Assembly: GCA_009760855.2 (NCBI GenBank)
Contig: WPIO01000014.1
Span: 3,026,001 to 3,090,000 of the forward strand
DNA length: 64,000 nt
Direction of reading: 5' to 3'
Source: Cristatella mucedo
Taxonomy: Eukaryota; Bryozoa; Phylactolaemata; Cristatellidae
The position numbers and the translations under genes are program-made. Positions 3,061 through 57,420 of this stretch are shown here, piece by piece. How positions within the stretch are numbered: position 1 is the first letter of the stretch; each line of letters begins with the position of its first letter. A model generated the notes under the pieces. The model ran no database searches, had not been told where the DNA came from, and saw only the letters and a list, made by a program, of their open reading frames with translations.

Positions 3061-3127
3061 GTAGGCAGTTGGCTGTGCCTAGTATATTATCGGACCAATG
3101 TGATCGTGTTTTTAGCTTCGTCATGCA

Positions 3128-4662: not shown

Positions 4663-7600
4663 GTTAGGCCATGTGAAGTTTATAAAGAAGAATACAAGGA
4701 GTGCAAATGTAAGTCCTTAAGCCTGTGTCTTCGCTTTTTAATCACGTAGGATTGCCTCTTATGTAGTCTGCTTTCTTTACTTGCTGTTCCTGTGATTTTC
4801 ACTCGGAGTGCCAAACAGGATCATGCTTGTTTGCAGCCTGGCTTGTGCATGATATAAAAAGGTGCAAAAAAAATCTTGACCGTGTACTTAGCTGCTTTTC
4901 CGTCGGAGGTCTGAGGCAGCATTCTCTGTTGAAAGCTATCTTGTGGCCTGACGTCATGGCATTCTACCAGCAAATGTGTGATACCATTGTACAATTTGCT
5001 AATAGTGGACTCGTTATAATTGGGGTCTCGTTCCAGTATGGGTCACTTGTTAGGTTTTCCTGTCTGTGCACTCCTCAAACTGGGACCAAATATGTATAGC
5101 GACTAAGGTTGCCGAGTTCGGTACTTTGCTTGGTTATCACATGTCTGCACCTGACTGCGTTGGAAGATGCGAATAACTGGGGTGGGCAGTATTGCTGGGT
5201 CGACATGGTGCGGTTTGTGCGATCGGAACGGCCTATATAATTCAAACATAATTCATTTGTATAGCGCCCCAAGAGAACTTATTCTTTATTCATGCGCTTC
5301 ACGTATGCCTCGGGGCTCGAGCCCACGACTTCAGCCAGACCTTGGTCGGGGCGAGCACCATAACCGTGGACCAGTCCAGCTCCGAACCCTAAGCTTCTCT
5401 GGTTTTGAAGCTTGCATGCTTTGCTTATCAGCAAAGCCTTCCGTAGTCCTTGATCTCCATTCAAAGTTTTCTTTACTGTCGATGCAGGCAGGCTGTCTGG
5501 TGATAGGGAGAATGCGTCAGAAAGACTTCTAATCGGCTGCAGAAGAGCCTTCGCGTCTCTCACCCTTTGCAACTAGCAATAAAGGATTGTCTGCAGTAGG
5601 ACTTTAACCAACAACCTGAGTCGTGAAGTTCGAGCACTTATCCCGTAGGCTTAGTTTCCCCGTAGAAGGATAGCAGCAATAGTCGATGACACTAAGTCAA
5701 AATCTCCCTTTTGTGCTGTGGCGGCTGCGTGCAAATGAAGTAGACCACCTGGATGCTGCCTAGTTTATATTCCAGGGACTACAACAGACGAACAAAGGAC
5801 TAAGCTTACAAAGAAAAGCAGCTTTCTGCTTTGCATTTTCTTCTATCATTTTCTAGCTACTCTTCATTGCTAGCTCGAAGCTATAGCTCCCTTTTGCTAC
5901 TATGGAATGCTTTAATAATTAATTACTCTTTGTTCACTCTGTTCTCCAATGTAAGCTATGCTTGCCACTTCAGCCTTGTTGGGCAAGATTTAGGTTGTTG
6001 GTCGTCAGATGCAGAAAGAAGAGCATATAAGTTGGAGGACTGCAGCGTTCGAGAAGTGAGTAGCTGTGAGAAGTGAGCAGTGAGTCACTATTTGAAGATT
6101 TGCAAAGTCCACCATAGTTGCCCGTGAGCTGTGTTATTGCTGAGCTAGCAAGAAAGATCTGCTTGAAAATAAATATACAGCTTATGTAAAGTGTCTAGAA
6201 AGAGATTTAAGTTCTCAGATGGCATTAAACAAATTTTTTATTATTATGATATTTGAATCTGCACAGTGAATTCCTCGGTTTCTCCTTCATCTATTTGAAT
6301 CGCCTTGTGTGTGCTTATTCATACTGCAATCGTGTATGTTATTGTCACTGTTTAATTCATTTTTCTCTTTTTCTGTCTTGGTGGAATAAAATATGCATGC
6401 ATGAGATTTAGTTCTTTCTGTATTCCATGCAAATGTGTTGTTAATATTATCCTTTGGCATCTCTCGCTCACAGATCATCCTCATACTTACATTGCTGTTG
6501 TCAAAGGTTAGGCGCTGGCATGAGAAAGTAATATTTTAAGGTCGACTTTGAATTTGTTAGAGATAAAGCTCAAAGAAGAGCAGTGTTTTCTGACAGGCTT
6601 CCTGGTAGGCTATAAAATGTTGTATTGCCCCATTTATCAAAAAGTTACTGAAGCCACTGTATGCATTTGAACTGCATGGCCCCGACGGGTCGGCAACCTC
6701 TCGTGCTGACAGGTCATCACTGGCTGCCAGTCGAGCAGGAAACTCGGCTCAAGATGCTTGTATTTCTCTCGGCGGTTATTGAGGACCCGATGAGGCAGAC
6801 CTCTAGTTACCTAGCTGGTGCTGCTTAGCAGCAGTCTCGAGTTATTATAGGGTCCACAAAAATAGACTGCCTGACTAGACTGACTGTTCCGGTCAGCTAT
6901 CTCGAGATGAGTTAGGTCATGTGACTGTCGTGCCTTGATGCTATAGAATGTATTGCCGTATTCCGCTCGGTAGTTACCTGCTTTCAAGCTTTTCTGCTTA
7001 GCTGATAGACAGGCTTTTTCAAAGTAGCTTGTGGAATTGGCTTTTTCAAAGTAGCTTGTGGAGTGGCTTGGCAGTGGACTCGAGCAAGGCCGTAGACACA
7101 CAGACCCACCAAAGACAGTGATCGTCAATTCATTGAAATGAACTAGGCTCCTCTGCCTTCTTAGTGCTGTGCAAGTCTGTTCGTGGTTATTCACAGCAAG
7201 TGTTTACCAACTTAGTGAATGTTAATTTGGGCCTTGCAGTTGTCAGCTTTGAATGTATGCAGGAGCCAGTATCAAGTGCCGATATGTGAGTCGTAGGTGA
7301 CCTTTTCGTCATGCTGGAGCCACTGAATCATTAAATGTAATTGCTGGATACCTTCTTGGTCTTCTTCTTTTTTGCAGTCATGCGGCCTTTGAATTGTTCT
7401 CGAATCCTGTGATGGCAAAACTGTGTGTGGACTCATTATATTGCAGTGCTTGGTAAAGCAACCAGCGCTTGCTTATTCCTAACTAAATTATATAAACCTA
7501 TATTTCTTTTGTGGATCCCAACATATCTTCATTGTCTGAGGATGTGCCTTTTGAAATCACTAAATATCTTGTGGTGTCTGTATTTGTTTTACCTCACTTT

Positions 7601-11390: not shown

Positions 11391-12237
11391 TTCGTGTTTA
11401 ATACTGCATTAATCCTTATCGGCAGTCAGATGAGCTGTTATCTTGCATCTTCAGTGTAACTGGCTTTAGGGGGAAATAAGTCGGGGGACACACAATGTCC
11501 GGGATATTCTGTCTGAACTTTTAGTGATAAAAAATATCACATACCCACCGATAACGATAACAATAATAAAGCGTTGTAAAGTGAACTACGAAGTAAAATG
11601 TGTTTCTAGGCATTCTTGAAAGGCTGGAAGAGAAGCATATCAGATAACTGATAATAGATAATGACTGATAGCAGCATGCACGATTGCTGCAAGCGTAAGC
11701 ATATTAAGAGCGATTCAAACGGATGAAGCATATGCTGTGAGGAATACGTTGATAAGAGTGCTGCCGTGATTTTGGCATGACGGCTAAACCTAGATCTTGT
11801 AGGATGTAAATGTCAAGCCCTATATCTTAAATCTTCCCGGAAATGCTCTTTCGCTATTTTATTTGCCGAATGTGGGCCGCTCAGAAGCTTCGTTCGACTT
11901 ACTTTTCAAAAAAGGAATATATGCTCATTTGAAAAGTCTGAAGCTGTAGGCAGATGTTAAGCGCCTAAATTTCTAGAGCCTGAAACCTCGAAGTCAGGCC
12001 TCGTTAATCTTACTAAAAAGATTAGCACATCTAAAAGCATGTTCACCCTTTTGAAAAACTGAAAGCCTCCATTGGAATCCGATCCTGAACGTTCAAGTCG
12101 AGGCGCTCTTCATTCTAGCATTCTTTTTAGCCGCAATCTAAAAGTAAAGTGTGTTAAAAATAGAAAGTAGGTAATATTCAAAGCCTCGGTTATTAATTTT
12201 TAGCGATATAGTGTCTATCAGTCTTTACTTAGCTTGC

Positions 12238-13879: not shown

Positions 13880-14003
13880 AATTCATTCATTTGTATAGCG
13901 CCCCAAGAGAACTAAATCTCTATTCAGGCGCTTCACGTATGCCTCAGGGCTCGAGCCCACGACCTCAGCCAGACCTTAGTCGGGGCGAGCACCTTAACCA
14001 CTA
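13880..14003 (-). mobile_element. SINE-2, left member of an inverted pair
   Basis: Plus strand: TTCATTTGTATAGCGCCCCA, GAGCCCACGACCTCAGCCAG, CGAGCACCTTAACCACTAG. It meets the next copy head to head. Confidence 0.87.
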
Positions 14004-18110: not shown

Positions 18111-21100
18111 ATGGATCCCTCAGCCTTCAATCGACTGTGCGCTGGCGTAAAGTTCGACTTCCACCGTTTCAGAGCGGACGCAGAGAAGCTCCAGGTAGAG
18201 CCTCATTGTGCAAATGAGGTCTTCTAACGTGATGCGGCTCATCAGGTGCACGTGGCGCACTGGGCGCATCGCCCGCGGCTCGCTCCGGTGCTCGGCCATC
18301 CTCGGTCGCCCCCAGCTGTTACTTTCGCTCCGTTCCTGCGGCCGTCCTGTACCCTCACTAGCTTTAGTAATTACTGTGGTTTTGATTATAACTCTTCTTG
18401 GTTTTCCTATGTATTTTTTTCGATTCTTTAATCGTCCTAATGTGATTAGCCCTAAGCACTCGGTGCTGAACTGTTCCTAGTCCACGATAATTATGTACTA
18501 CATACCTGTTGTGCGGATGGCAGATCATATAAAGAAGTTCATATACGGGCTAAAAGAATAAATGGTCGAACATTTTATCCAATAGACTTGTGTAATTTTT
18601 ACTGCATGTAAGATACTCGGAGCTCATATTTATCCTCTGAAATGTAAAAGCAGTACTGAAGCCTCACTTTTCGCTTTATAACTTTCACCGCTGCGTTCCA
18701 GCAACTGGTTGCCTTTGGCTACTGATTTTCAAGATTTATTTGCTTCTCATTTTTCACTGTTACAGATTCTTCGTGCGAATGTATCACAGAAAGACGAGAA
18801 ACTTGTAGAGAGCTGCAACCCAGCGCCCGGCAAAGTGCGGCAGAGCCCTGACGCTGTTGCTGGAAAGCACAGTAAGCGTTGCTTCAATGCATTGATCGTG
18901 AGCTGCATATGGTCCCAGACTGCGAGCCGCCGAATATCAACAAGCTCGACCTCTTTTCTTTCAGACCCCCCAAGTCACGGTAGCCGCTCCGAGAGCATCA
19001 TGGAAGGACCGGCTGAGCATGCCTCGGGCGCCCAGCTTAAGTTGCTGGGTAGCATGACGGTTGCAGCAGCTGCTTCTCGCAAGCTAGAACAGCGTAAGGC
19101 AAAGAAAAAGAAGCAAAAGTCCAAGTCACAGCAGCTGCTGGCTGATATGATGCAGGAAGAGGTAAGTTCGGTATCTATCTCGGTTCCCTAATGTGCACTT
19201 ACGGTCTTGATGTATTGGTTAACGTTCGAGTTGTATCTATTAAGTCTGACTTCTCATTGTATTTTTTGTTTGGTTTGAGTATCACCGTCTGCTCATTTTG
19301 GTTTTGCTCAGTCAAGCACTCTCTGCTTCGTCCTTGCTTGTTTCTCTGCTACACCAGCTGTTGATCTGAATGGAGGAGGTCTGCTAGGCAAGGAAAGTGA
19401 AGTTGTGTATCGGTTGTTTTTCTTCGAACGTGCTACCCGGTATAGTGCTGCAATTTGGCAGTTGTATATACTGGATGATTTTGTTTCCATAAAAATAGAT
19501 ATATAGATATATTTCATTTGTATAGCACCCTATGAGAACTAAATCTCTGTTGTGGTGCTTCATATATGCCTTGGGGGCTCCAGCCCACGACCTCGGTCAT
19601 CAAATACATTCGCCTTGGCCAAGACAAGCATCTTTACTACCTCCATCTTGGTGTCATGGAATCTTAACTGTTTTTGGTTTGTATAGCCCTATCGTAATGC
19701 TCTCTATATAGCTAGCTTTTAGGAAGCGCACACCGGGTATGTCGTTGGAAAATTCAGCTTGTAGAACCCTTCGACGATGACAGCATGCGTCGGTACAATG
19801 CAGCTTGAATGTTTGTACCCTAAATTGCCATCTAACATGTTTCTTCTGTTAATGTGGAACTGTAATTTTTCAGTTAAGATGCAAGCAATGGGAAGTCATG
19901 AACAACATAGACCTTATTCGTCTTTTGCACTTTTCAGCTGAGGAATACAGCCTGCTTGTATTATAGATATCTGGCATATGCCACGTCTCTTTTGGTTGTC
20001 ACACAACCAATAAAGCTTTGATCCTATATAAATATACTGCATACACACACGATCGAGTGTCAAAGTAGCGGCAAGGCTGCTTATAACTGCAGCCTGACCC
20101 AAAAAGTTCTAATAGTGGTTTAGAAATACGGCTACCTGCTGTAGTAATATCCAGTGTTTAAAAATAGCTTACCTAACACGGAAGCAAAGTTTCAGCATAA
20201 GTATGTTAATTTGTAGTCCTAAAATTAGGTTGTACTATCGTAGTAAGCAATAACCTGTGTGAGTCTCTCAAGCATAAAGTGAACTAAGCATTCCCAAATA
20301 TCTGGCTTTATCACCCTCCAAACTTTATGTAAACTTGGTAAAAGCAAATCTTCAGATGTGATACGACCCAGCTGAGCTCCGAGCCTTCCATCTACTTAAA
20401 AAAAATATTGAATTGGCTTAGCTGCATGCTTAGGGTCATTTTTGCTCTCTAGGAAAAGAAAATTATCTTCACGAAGGCTCATTGCATTACGGACTGCATG
20501 GTGCTGGAGTGGTTCTAAATAAACGCCTTTCGTCGTGATGTCATGTATCTTCTATAGAAGCATCACCATGCCATAACTTGTTTGTCGCCAAATTTCACGT
20601 CTACTGATGGCAGTTATCATTGAAACCATCATCAGAGCCACTGCAAAGGTAATACTAATACTAATAATAATAATACATTTGATGAAGCACCCTCAGAGAA
20701 CTCATCTCTTTCTAGGTGCTTTAAATTTGCTGCAAAGGAAGCACGATCGACTTCATACATTATCAGTTACCAAAATTGGTAAACTACTCTCATCGCTATA
20801 TTCGATTCGCTTCAGTCTTTGTGGGTCTCCTGTACTCTCATCCTAGCCCACTTTAAACTAGCTACGTCATGCTTGATAGACAGAAGTGGCTTTTTCGCTT
20901 TCCAAGCAGACATATCTTGTTGGTCTAGTCGACGCCTAATCGTATCTCGGCCAACTAACTTCCCAGTAACAGCCTAAACACTTTGAGCGTGAACCCCCAA
21001 AGGCATGAAATGCCTCAAGTTTCACATTTTGAGACCTGGCGGTCGTACTGAAATGTGGATAACCGGGTCTCTTTGCATTATAGATGATACCAGTCATAGC

Positions 21101-42523: not shown

Positions 42524-43153
42524 AGACACTGCATGTGTGCTGAAAGGAAGCACGATCATATGGTTAGCAATTGTTTGCGAAATGTCAAGGATAACATGGA
42601 TAGAGGCGACATGCACAGGATCAGCCTGCAAAGGTGGTTAGTGGCAGCATGCAGTCATGCAGTGTCATCATGCATTAGCACAGAAAAAAAATCACAGGGA
42701 CCCACTAAATGTTGTGACAAATCGGTGCATTTTTAGTTTTTCTGTAAATGTCAAGTCGGGGAATGTCGTGACATCAGTTGAAAGTGAGTTCCGGGCTTTT
42801 CGGAGCATACAAACTAAAGGCATGGTCTGTACAGGATTTAAGGTTCGTAAGAGGTATGGCTTAGAGGTTTGATTCAGAAAAGCTGGCGGTACGTCAATAC
42901 GCTGCTTGATTGGAACCCAGTGAAGTCCACAAGAAATGGTGCGATGTGGCAGCTGCGAGGCTCGCGGCAGACAAGCCTATCTGCCGATTTTTGCACCAAC
43001 TGTAAGCGCCTGATTGCACATGCTGGTAGAACAGCAAGTAGTGAGTTGCAGAAATCGAGACGGTATGTTACAAATGCATGGATCAATTTTTCGTAGTATC
43101 CTTGCCTAAGAAAACCCGAATTTAAGCAATGTTGCGTTGCTGAAAGTAGGCAT

Positions 43154-43218
43154 ACTTGACTGTGGAGCTGAAGTGATCTTCTAGTCACGAGAGGATCACT
43201 TCAGCTCCACAGTCAAGT
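43154..43218. repeat. Palindrome abutting the SPIN left end
   Basis: Positions 43154-43178 and 43194-43218 are perfect 25-bp reverse complements. The central bases continue the symmetry with two mismatches, so the palindrome is nearly loopless, about 33 bp per arm centred near 43186. The left arm is original LINE B sequence plus the target duplication; the right arm is its inverted copy, placed between the duplication and the transposon end. Confidence 0.9.
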
Positions 43219-43404
43219 CTGTGGTTCTCAACCTTCCTAATGCCGCTATCTTTTAATACAGTTCCCCATGTTGTGGCGACCCCTTACCATAAAATTATTG
43301 TATGAAAAATGTGGAAATGCGTGTTTTCCTATGGTTTAGGCGACCCCTACGAAAGGGTCGTTCGTCCCCTAAAGGGGTCGCGACCCACAGATTGAGAACT
43401 GCAG
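43219..43404 (+). mobile_element. SPIN-like hAT nonautonomous DNA transposon
   Basis: The 186-bp unit starts CTGTGGTTCTCAACCTTCC and ends in the near-inverted TTGAGAACTGCAG. Inside are GTTGTGGCGACCCC, ACCATAAAATTATT, TAGGCGACCCC and GGGGTCGCGACCCACAG, all recalled landmarks of the SPIN (SPace INvaders) short elements. TTCTAGTG follows it and TTCTAGTC lies left of it inside a palindrome, fitting an 8-bp hAT target duplication. It interrupts the reverse transcriptase region of a minus-strand LINE B copy: the LINE frame rejoins across it as ...LALEDHFSS. Family assignment is by memory of the consensus; it should be confirmed by search. Confidence 0.85.
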
Positions 43405-43800
43405 TTCTAGTGCAAGGTCACTTTGATATAATAGGTGTCGTGTTGCACATAGATTTCGTGCAGATGCAGCAGGAGATGTGCTGACACAGTCAATTTTGAA
43501 CGTTAAGATTTCTAAATTCGGAGTTACGCTTGGTTTTCCCATAATTAATCAGTTGGTTTTGTCGTCATTTAATTTGAGAAAATTTGCTGCCATCCATGTG
43601 CGGATTGCCATACATGTAACCAGGGTGCATAGAGAATTCGACGTGCTTGAGGGCTGGGAGTGATCAAAGCGAAGGTACAACTTAATGTCATCTGCGTACA
43701 AGTAACAGCCTAGATTATGCTTGGAAATTACACCGGCAAGAGGGCGAGTATACAGTGTGAAGAGAAACAGACCGAGCACGGCGCCCTGATGTACCCCATA

Positions 43801-45633
43801 CTACAGTGATTACTCAACGACCTTATTCTGTTATATCAATACTTTGACGCCTCTCTTTGAGATGGGACTTAAGCCATTGTAGTGCAGCGCCAGTGTTGCC
43901 CAGGGGAGATGAAAGGCGCTCGTGAAGGACTTGCAATCGATAGTATCGCACGCTGCCGAAAGATCAAGCAAAGCAGACAGTAAAGTCCGTCAAAATCGGC
44001 TTGGGGTTGAGAAGTTTCACAGTTTTGACAAGAGTTTTAAAATATTTTAAATAGATTAACGTGTCAATATATATGTATCAGTTTCGTGAGCTCTAATGCT
44101 GAAGCCGCTTATTGTGATAGCGAAGCTGTAACGCAAGTAAACTTCTAAACAATTAAAGTAGATGTCAGAATTGAGCTTTTTTTACTTGAACAAAGTGGCA
44201 CTACGTTTTACCTTTTACGGCCAGCTCATCTTTTCAGGTCACCAGACGATGTAATCTGCTGCTAAGGTCTCCGTTCATCTCCATAGATAATTTCAGCAAA
44301 GTTGAAGACACGCATTTTAATTTAGTTAAAAGGTTTTTGAAAACATTTAGATGCAAAAGCAAATGATTAAAATTCTCTACATCGATGATGCAGCTCCTAT
44401 GAATAAGGAGGCCACTCATTTACTTGGGTCGGCACGATTCCGTACACTGCCGTGTTTCCTAACATTAACAGGCGGAGACAGATCGTAGATGACAGCTAAT
44501 ACTATTTCACGCAATCGTCGCAATTTTCGGCAGCTTTAGCTGTAAGTGTATTTTCCGTCATAAATGGTGTGTCGTCACTAATAAGATGACGTAATCGACT
44601 CGACCAAGTACCTTGAGATTGTACAGTTGCCAGTACGGTAGCAATCACAGAAGGAACTCTACTCACGAGGTCAAGACAAGTTGAATTTAAAAAAACTCGA
44701 TTATGGCTTACAAAGGTATGCTACATTTAAGGCTTATTTAGCAGTATCACTTTGATAACATTTATACTGACCAATGCAGTAGATCGTTACCAACAGTATA
44801 ACATGTAAACTGCTTCAGATAATGCATCTACTTGAATATTATACATTAGTTATTTAAAAACATTGTACAGATAAATAAGTATCAGATATCTTTGAAAGGT
44901 AGGAAATTTAAAAGACCGCAGGGGTCGCTCACTTAAGAACTAAGGTAAATGCACAGACTTTTGAAATGCAAAGCCTCAGTTTTGAGGAAGGCAAAGTGCT
45001 CAAATGATTGAAAGCCGTATTTTTCGACTGCAATTGTAAACACGGCCGGAGACATTTTTTTAGCTCTACTAGTAATTGGTTGCATACTTTCTATACTAAC
45101 GGCAAGATTCAAGCAAATGCGTTATAATACTCAAATAAGTGCTCGCTAGACGCACTTAAAAATGTTTTTAGCCAATGTCTGTACTCTAACAAAGACTGTC
45201 TTTTTTATAAATTCTAATTAGCTAAGCTGTGAATTCAAATTTTAAATTCCCCAATCAAAGTTCTTGGTTTATTGCTCGACCAAGATGTCCATCAACTGGA
45301 AATTTGCCTTAGTTGTTTTTCATAAGGGCACTTGTTACACTGCAATTTCAGTCTGTGCAGAATGACGCATCAAGCAGATTGCGAGAGTGAGGTGAGAAAA
45401 AACTTCTTAACACAGATGCCTGAGAAGACCATGTTATAACCTTGCAGCGATGACCTGACGCAGCACATTATCAAAGAGTCTAAAAAATATAAGACAAGTC
45501 ACTATTTTACAGCAATTAAATACATAATAGGAAGAGAATAAAACCAACTGCTTTGCAAGGCCATCAAACATAGTCTTCTTTCCCTAACACACCAGGCACC
45601 TTAGATGATTTTATTTCTGTCCTTTGCTTGCAG
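43801..45633. other. Upstream region of aminotransferase copy 2
   Basis: AT-rich, no recognised repeat beyond the LINE B edge at 43800. The missing start exon of copy 2 should lie here or further left, but no ATG exon with a compatible donor could be singled out. Confidence 0.4.
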
Positions 45634-57245: not shown

Positions 57246-57420
57246 ATGCCTAAATATAATTCCTTTGCATGACGCCCTAATAGAACGAAATCTTTGTTCA
57301 TGCGCTTCACACATGCGACGGGGCTCGAGCCCGCGACCTAATTCGTTAAATACGTTCACCTTGACCTTGGTCTGGGCAAGCACCTTAACCAGTGGGCCAA
57401 ACCAGTGCCGAGATATTATT
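57245..57420 (-). mobile_element. SINE-2
   Basis: Plus strand: AATTCCTTTGCATGACGCCC, GGGGCTCGAGCCCGCGACCT, CTTAACCAGTGGGCCAAACC. Confidence 0.78.

Follow-up and report, generated by a model that had tools for sequence, protein, structure and literature searches.

The 64,000-nucleotide stretch of the Cristatella mucedo genome analysed here (hereafter the window; G000:C55:3026001-3090000) contains what is very probably a copy of SPIN, in a non-autonomous, MITE-like form of this Buster-type hAT element. In the reading that we prefer, to which we assign a probability of about 0.9, the family would have entered the host lineage horizontally and multiplied in an old burst, with a later insertion of this copy into a LINE and the patching of its 5' junction. 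SPIN is one of the standard examples of transposon transfer between distant animals, and another invertebrate lineage with a burst this large would contribute a further point to the map of such transfers, one that could be dated with a clock for the host.

The element lies on the plus strand at positions 43219-43404 and is of the short form (~186 bp). The SPIN-signature motifs that a sequence-only reading of this DNA had quoted are all present, GTGGTTCTCAACCTTCC (43221-43237), CATAAAATTATT (43288-43299) and GGGGTCGCGACCCACAG (43374-43390) within the element and TTGAGAACTGCAG (43392-43404) at its 3' end, and the observation of a non-autonomous hAT repeat of about 186 bp at this position is confirmed. 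Compared with the consensus built from the genome's own copies, the window copy carries 15 substitutions and one gap over 182 aligned positions (K80 = 0.088). Its start is imperfect, with CTGTGG in place of the CAGTGG of the consensus, and the 8-mers that immediately border it match at only one of eight positions.

Searches of the 572-Mb assembly (688 contigs) revealed that this copy belongs to an abundant family. With the window unit as query, the best 40 of 2,188 first-look candidates comprised the query itself and 39 others that are 86-89% identical to it along most of its 186-bp length. The consensus of the copies returned 2,336 candidates, and among the 41 matches listed 40 were nearly full-length at 94-96% and one stood at 85%. 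An internal 26-mer, allowing up to 3 mismatches, was found at 1,429 places genome-wide (723 + 706), a figure that slightly exceeds the number of copies because two of the listed places are only 34 bases apart; its reversed control gave 0. A second 26-mer, which spans the interior of the short form, occurred at 1,150 places (control 0), and an exact 16-mer at 315 places compared with 1 in the control. Further copies, which the sequence-only reading had proposed looking for across the genome, therefore number many hundreds.

An 8-bp target site duplication (TSD) and terminal inverted repeats (TIRs) of about 15 bp are hallmarks of the hAT superfamily (PMC11008031), and both are found in this family. 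The consensus, derived from a 40-copy alignment that includes the window copy, is ~187 bp long, starts with CAGTGGTTCTCAACCTTCC and finishes with GGTTGAGAACCGCTG; its TIRs, CAGTGGTTCTCAACC and CAGCGGTTCTCAACC, agree at 14 of 15 positions in this alignment. For the TSDs we assembled 69 distinct copies, consisting of the 40 scored copies and 30 loci with the exact 16-mer, one being common to both sets, and left out 7 truncated copies to give 62 with intact ends. The flanking 8-mers agree at six or more of eight positions in 49 of these 62 copies, compared with 3 of 310 control pairs of 8-mers taken 20-80 bp further outward; the remaining 13, among which is the window copy, fall below this level. 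Of the 49 left-hand TSD copies, 46 have T at the fourth position and all have A at the fifth, giving nnnTAnnn. The same sequence is the TSD consensus of TcBuster, and SPIN has been assigned to the Buster family, which is separate from the Ac family (PMC3499496), so the target sites found here are of the Buster type.

A longer form of the element is represented by L109, one of the 30 exact-16-mer loci, which keeps both ends and has an interior of ~137 bp, as against 13 in the short form. When used as a query this interior returned 101 candidates, the best 40 of which, L109 itself included, had 80-100% identity. Given this larger interior and the greater abundance of the short form, we infer that the latter is an internal-deletion derivative that amplified more.

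The window copy is nested in another repeat, which lies on the minus strand on both sides of it. The left flank (42700-43178) consists of two colinear pieces that are matched in several loci, and the right flank (43446-43975) is a dispersed repeat; as a query the latter gave 6,401 first-look candidates, and the 41 matches listed consisted of the query itself, 39 further places with 76-78% identity and a short piece with 80%. We regard this repeat as a LINE because a fragment of a reverse transcriptase is encoded on its minus strand (43552-43800; RVT_1, E = 3.9e-8). In four other copies of the LINE (L005, L009, L021 and L094) the sequence continues across the insertion site with no element in it, a few additional bases being present in L005. 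L108 also lacks it, but can be aligned only to just past the target, and L004 stops short of the site. Because homologous LINE sites elsewhere run uninterrupted, the window copy must have inserted later than its LINE copy, and the earlier proposal that the insertion postdates the LINE (LINE B) is borne out by the nesting together with these element-free sites. In L098, which is a further copy of this LINE, the homologous target is occupied by a second SPIN copy in the opposite orientation (about 1400-1600 of L098).

Other features of the window may be noted here. An open frame on the plus strand at 48365-48700 matches class-V aminotransferases (PF00266, E = 6.3e-5) and may represent a host-gene exon. 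A short dispersed repeat around TTGTATAGCGCCC...AGAGAACT (family D6) occurs at 410-477, 5248-5315, 13882-13949, 19509-19576 and 57256-57323, and families D6 and D8 each have 5 copies within the 64-kb window.

The 5' junction of the window copy has an unusual structure. At the 3' side the element is followed directly by a TSD of the nnnTAnnn type, TTCTAGTG (43405-43412, plus strand), and the probable 5' copy of this, TTCTAGTC (43179-43186, plus strand), matches it at 7 of 8 positions and is displaced upstream of the element. The LINE sequence immediately upstream of this 5' TSD copy (43154-43178, plus strand) is the left arm of an inverted repeat whose two 25-bp arms match perfectly; the right arm (43194-43218, minus strand) is an inverted copy of 43154-43178 placed between the TSD and the element. 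The LINE-like ACGAGAGG (43187-43194, plus strand) lies 5' of the element, between the 5' TSD copy and the 25-nt inverted copy, and follows TCTA exactly in three of the five LINE copies that could be read across the site (L005, L021 and L108), while being altered in L009 and L094. The right arm overlaps ACGAGAGG by one base and is missing from the aligned LINE copies.

We suggest that a break or a copying error arose at the 5' junction after the insertion and was patched by templated repair or a template switch. Synthesis may have run beyond the target along an element-free copy of the LINE and then switched at a shared TCACTT, which would yield the 25 nt that repeat the upstream flank in inverted orientation, before being joined to the element in a way that altered its first bases. 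At 0.088 substitutions per site, the divergence of this copy itself, the probability that the 25-bp arms would have stayed identical since the insertion is about 0.012 (a Poisson estimate with no arm-to-arm correction). The scar is for this reason probably younger than the insertion, and the idea that the inverted repeat is as old as the insertion is weakened. It is unlikely, though it deserves some weight, that the inverted repeat is an assembly or read artefact, which would concern the junction only. Fold-back artefacts do occur, and no perfect inverted repeat of at least 15 bp with a loop of up to about 30 was seen in 500-bp windows at 69 other loci (68 distinct). However, the insert also includes LINE-like sequence from past the target, in the correct order, a component that is not accounted for by a simple fold-back.

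The assignment to SPIN draws on sequence from the mouse. Two reverse primers for one arm of the mouse Ate1 locus are printed in PMC2767504, in a passage that does not name SPIN; another mouse sequence, in PMC11247941, was left out of the comparison. The primers match the reverse strand of our consensus at 18 of 19 bases (positions 1-19) and at 18 of 20 (positions 56-75), on the same strand and in colinear arrangement, and when each was shuffled 2,000 times the result never exceeded 15 of 20 against the consensus. Primer R1 also matches the opposite end of the element (16/20), and most weight is therefore carried by primer R2, as R1 falls in the TIR and fits the other end too. A colinear relative is thus apparently present at the mouse Ate1 locus, and we take it to be SPIN. 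Murine genomes carry SPIN, and a provisional murine SPIN sequence is identical to the element at 79 of 81 and 85 of 85 positions at the ends, the identities to it ranging over 88-100%. The membership of the family in SPIN is well supported. The contention of the sequence-only reading that this is a SPIN-type hAT accordingly stands as far as the 8-bp nnnTAnnn TSDs, the TIRs and the colinear match of two primers are concerned, whereas the comparison with SPIN sequence itself covered the primers and the provisional murine sequence.

There is a slim chance that the family is instead a related but distinct hAT MITE of the Buster/Charlie type that has only its ends in common with SPIN. Short similar TIRs are shared among hAT families, and the SPIN sequences compared were the two primers and the provisional murine one. 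The match to primer R2, however, sits 56-75 bases inside the element and outside the TIR, and the interior plus 3' end of L109 is identical at 186 of 211 positions to the provisional murine SPIN sequence, although the latter was put together with L109 already known. The L109 interior alone scores 170 against this sequence, compared with 44 for the best of 500 shuffles.

The genome contains 138 places with a hAT dimerisation domain. A group of 63 of these have similar scores (69-78 bits), and open frames of 635-642 amino acids are present in 16 members of that group. The three loci that were compared (L057, L058 and L073) represent one 3.2-kb family, two of them being 99.2% identical across 3,234 bp and the third matching at 99.4% across 1,256 bp. 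This family, a copy of which occupies about 1440-4693 of L057, encodes zf-BED and hAT domains and resembles Ac/Hermes, Hermes being its nearest solved relative. Two of its copies, 99.2% identical, both lie in (TA)n runs, and the family has recently been active. It is ruled out as the SPIN parent by its different ends, TTAGGGCTGTACCGG, and the SPIN end motifs, allowing up to one mismatch, were not found in L009-L038. When the 75 other hAT-domain places were compared with 269 SPIN places, which are a subset of the family with some copies entered twice, none of the 75 was within 4 kb of a SPIN place (0.28 expected by chance) and one was within 8 kb (4.4 kb). The autonomous parent that the earlier reading had proposed seeking was hence not found in the comparison of these two partial lists.

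The preferred reading, a non-autonomous SPIN family of horizontal origin, would imply the following history. A longer SPIN form would have given rise to the internally deleted short form, which would have moved by cut-and-paste, inserting at 8-bp nnnTAnnn targets, by means of a transposase made elsewhere, presumably that of SPIN. The family may have entered this invertebrate lineage horizontally, amplified there and then ceased moving. Host-parasite contact, with which the sequence-only reading associated SPIN transfer, gained neither support nor contradiction from the analysis. The age of the amplification was estimated from the 30 exact-16-mer loci, with the 16-mer masked and two loci with fewer than 100 compared positions dropped; this sample is less biased than the best matches because loci were picked in contig order, although all of them still keep the exact 16-mer. 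The 28 remaining loci have a mean K80 to the consensus of 0.096 and a median of 0.085 (0.084 and 0.065, respectively, without CpG sites). The SPIN amplification is an old burst, the copies of which have decayed to about 10% from the consensus. Two exact SPIN patterns had 0 matches in viral_contigs. That the SPIN copies are genuine but were vertically inherited, or derive from contaminating vertebrate DNA, is scarcely credible: old elements can persist, but copies with a mean K80 of 0.096 are too young to have been inherited from before the divergence from vertebrates, and nothing was found in favour of contamination, the copies being spread over many contigs, many of megabase length, and at least two of them nested in the genome's own LINE family.

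The sequence-only reading had placed the element in an invertebrate, and the mitochondrial genome agrees with this. Contig C688 (21,008 bases, of which 19,000 were read) was recognised as mitochondrial by a family search for COX1, by eye from translations for the other genes and by ARAGORN for the tRNAs. AGA and AGG are stops in the vertebrate mitochondrial code; here they occur in frame in all seven of the mitochondrial genes checked, 11 times in cox1. The genes nad1, nad6, cob, nad4L, nad4 and nad5 share a strand with cox1, cox3, atp6 and nad3, and tRNA-Pro and tRNA-Thr are on the opposite strand. This gene order is lophotrochozoan-like, closest in character to nemerteans or phoronids, and unlike that of an insect or a pulmonate snail. 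As separate observations, C688 (L078 and L079) has identical open frames at 11632 and 13747, a tandem duplicate 2,115 bases apart, with a third, inverted copy near 3078, and COX1-like pieces at G000:C166:4375626-4376390 and on C83, C549 and C299 are perhaps mitochondrial insertions in the nucleus.

SPIN is a known kind of element and is known also from invertebrates, Lymnaea being one of these, and the host lineage described here appears to be a further one. We propose tentatively, at slightly less than even odds, that SPIN invaded an invertebrate lineage beyond insects and pulmonate snails, perhaps a new host at the level of the phylum, in an old burst, and that the 5' break of this copy was repaired by templated fold-back synthesis. 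Among the open-access papers listed, none was seen to describe SPIN in a host of this kind, and this counts as weak evidence. If SPIN hosts include animals other than a blood-feeding bug and pulmonate snails, this would bear on the need for parasite carriers.

The family can be compared with several known systems. In the murine form of the tetrapod SPIN (SPACE INVADERS) the ends, the 8-bp TSD and the short, internally deleted, high-copy form are alike, but the host of the Cristatella mucedo family is an invertebrate. Among the vertebrates, a turtle has 385 SPIN elements, classed in the hAT-Charlie family (PMC4054807). TcBuster, a beetle element with its own transposase, is likened to the present family by its TSD consensus, nnnTAnnn (PMC3499496). 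The SPIN-like hAT of Biomphalaria glabrata, with about 1,000 copies, is of the same order of abundance as the family described here, and the DNA transposons of that snail are described as not being recent invaders, with intact transposases undetected (PMC5440852). The present host differs from a pulmonate snail in its mitochondrial order, which distinguishes it from Biomphalaria. Rhodnius prolixus likewise carries SPIN_NA elements in an invertebrate genome, but in that case the transfer has been called recent (PMC11614815), in contrast to the old burst observed here in a host whose mitochondrial order is not that of an insect.
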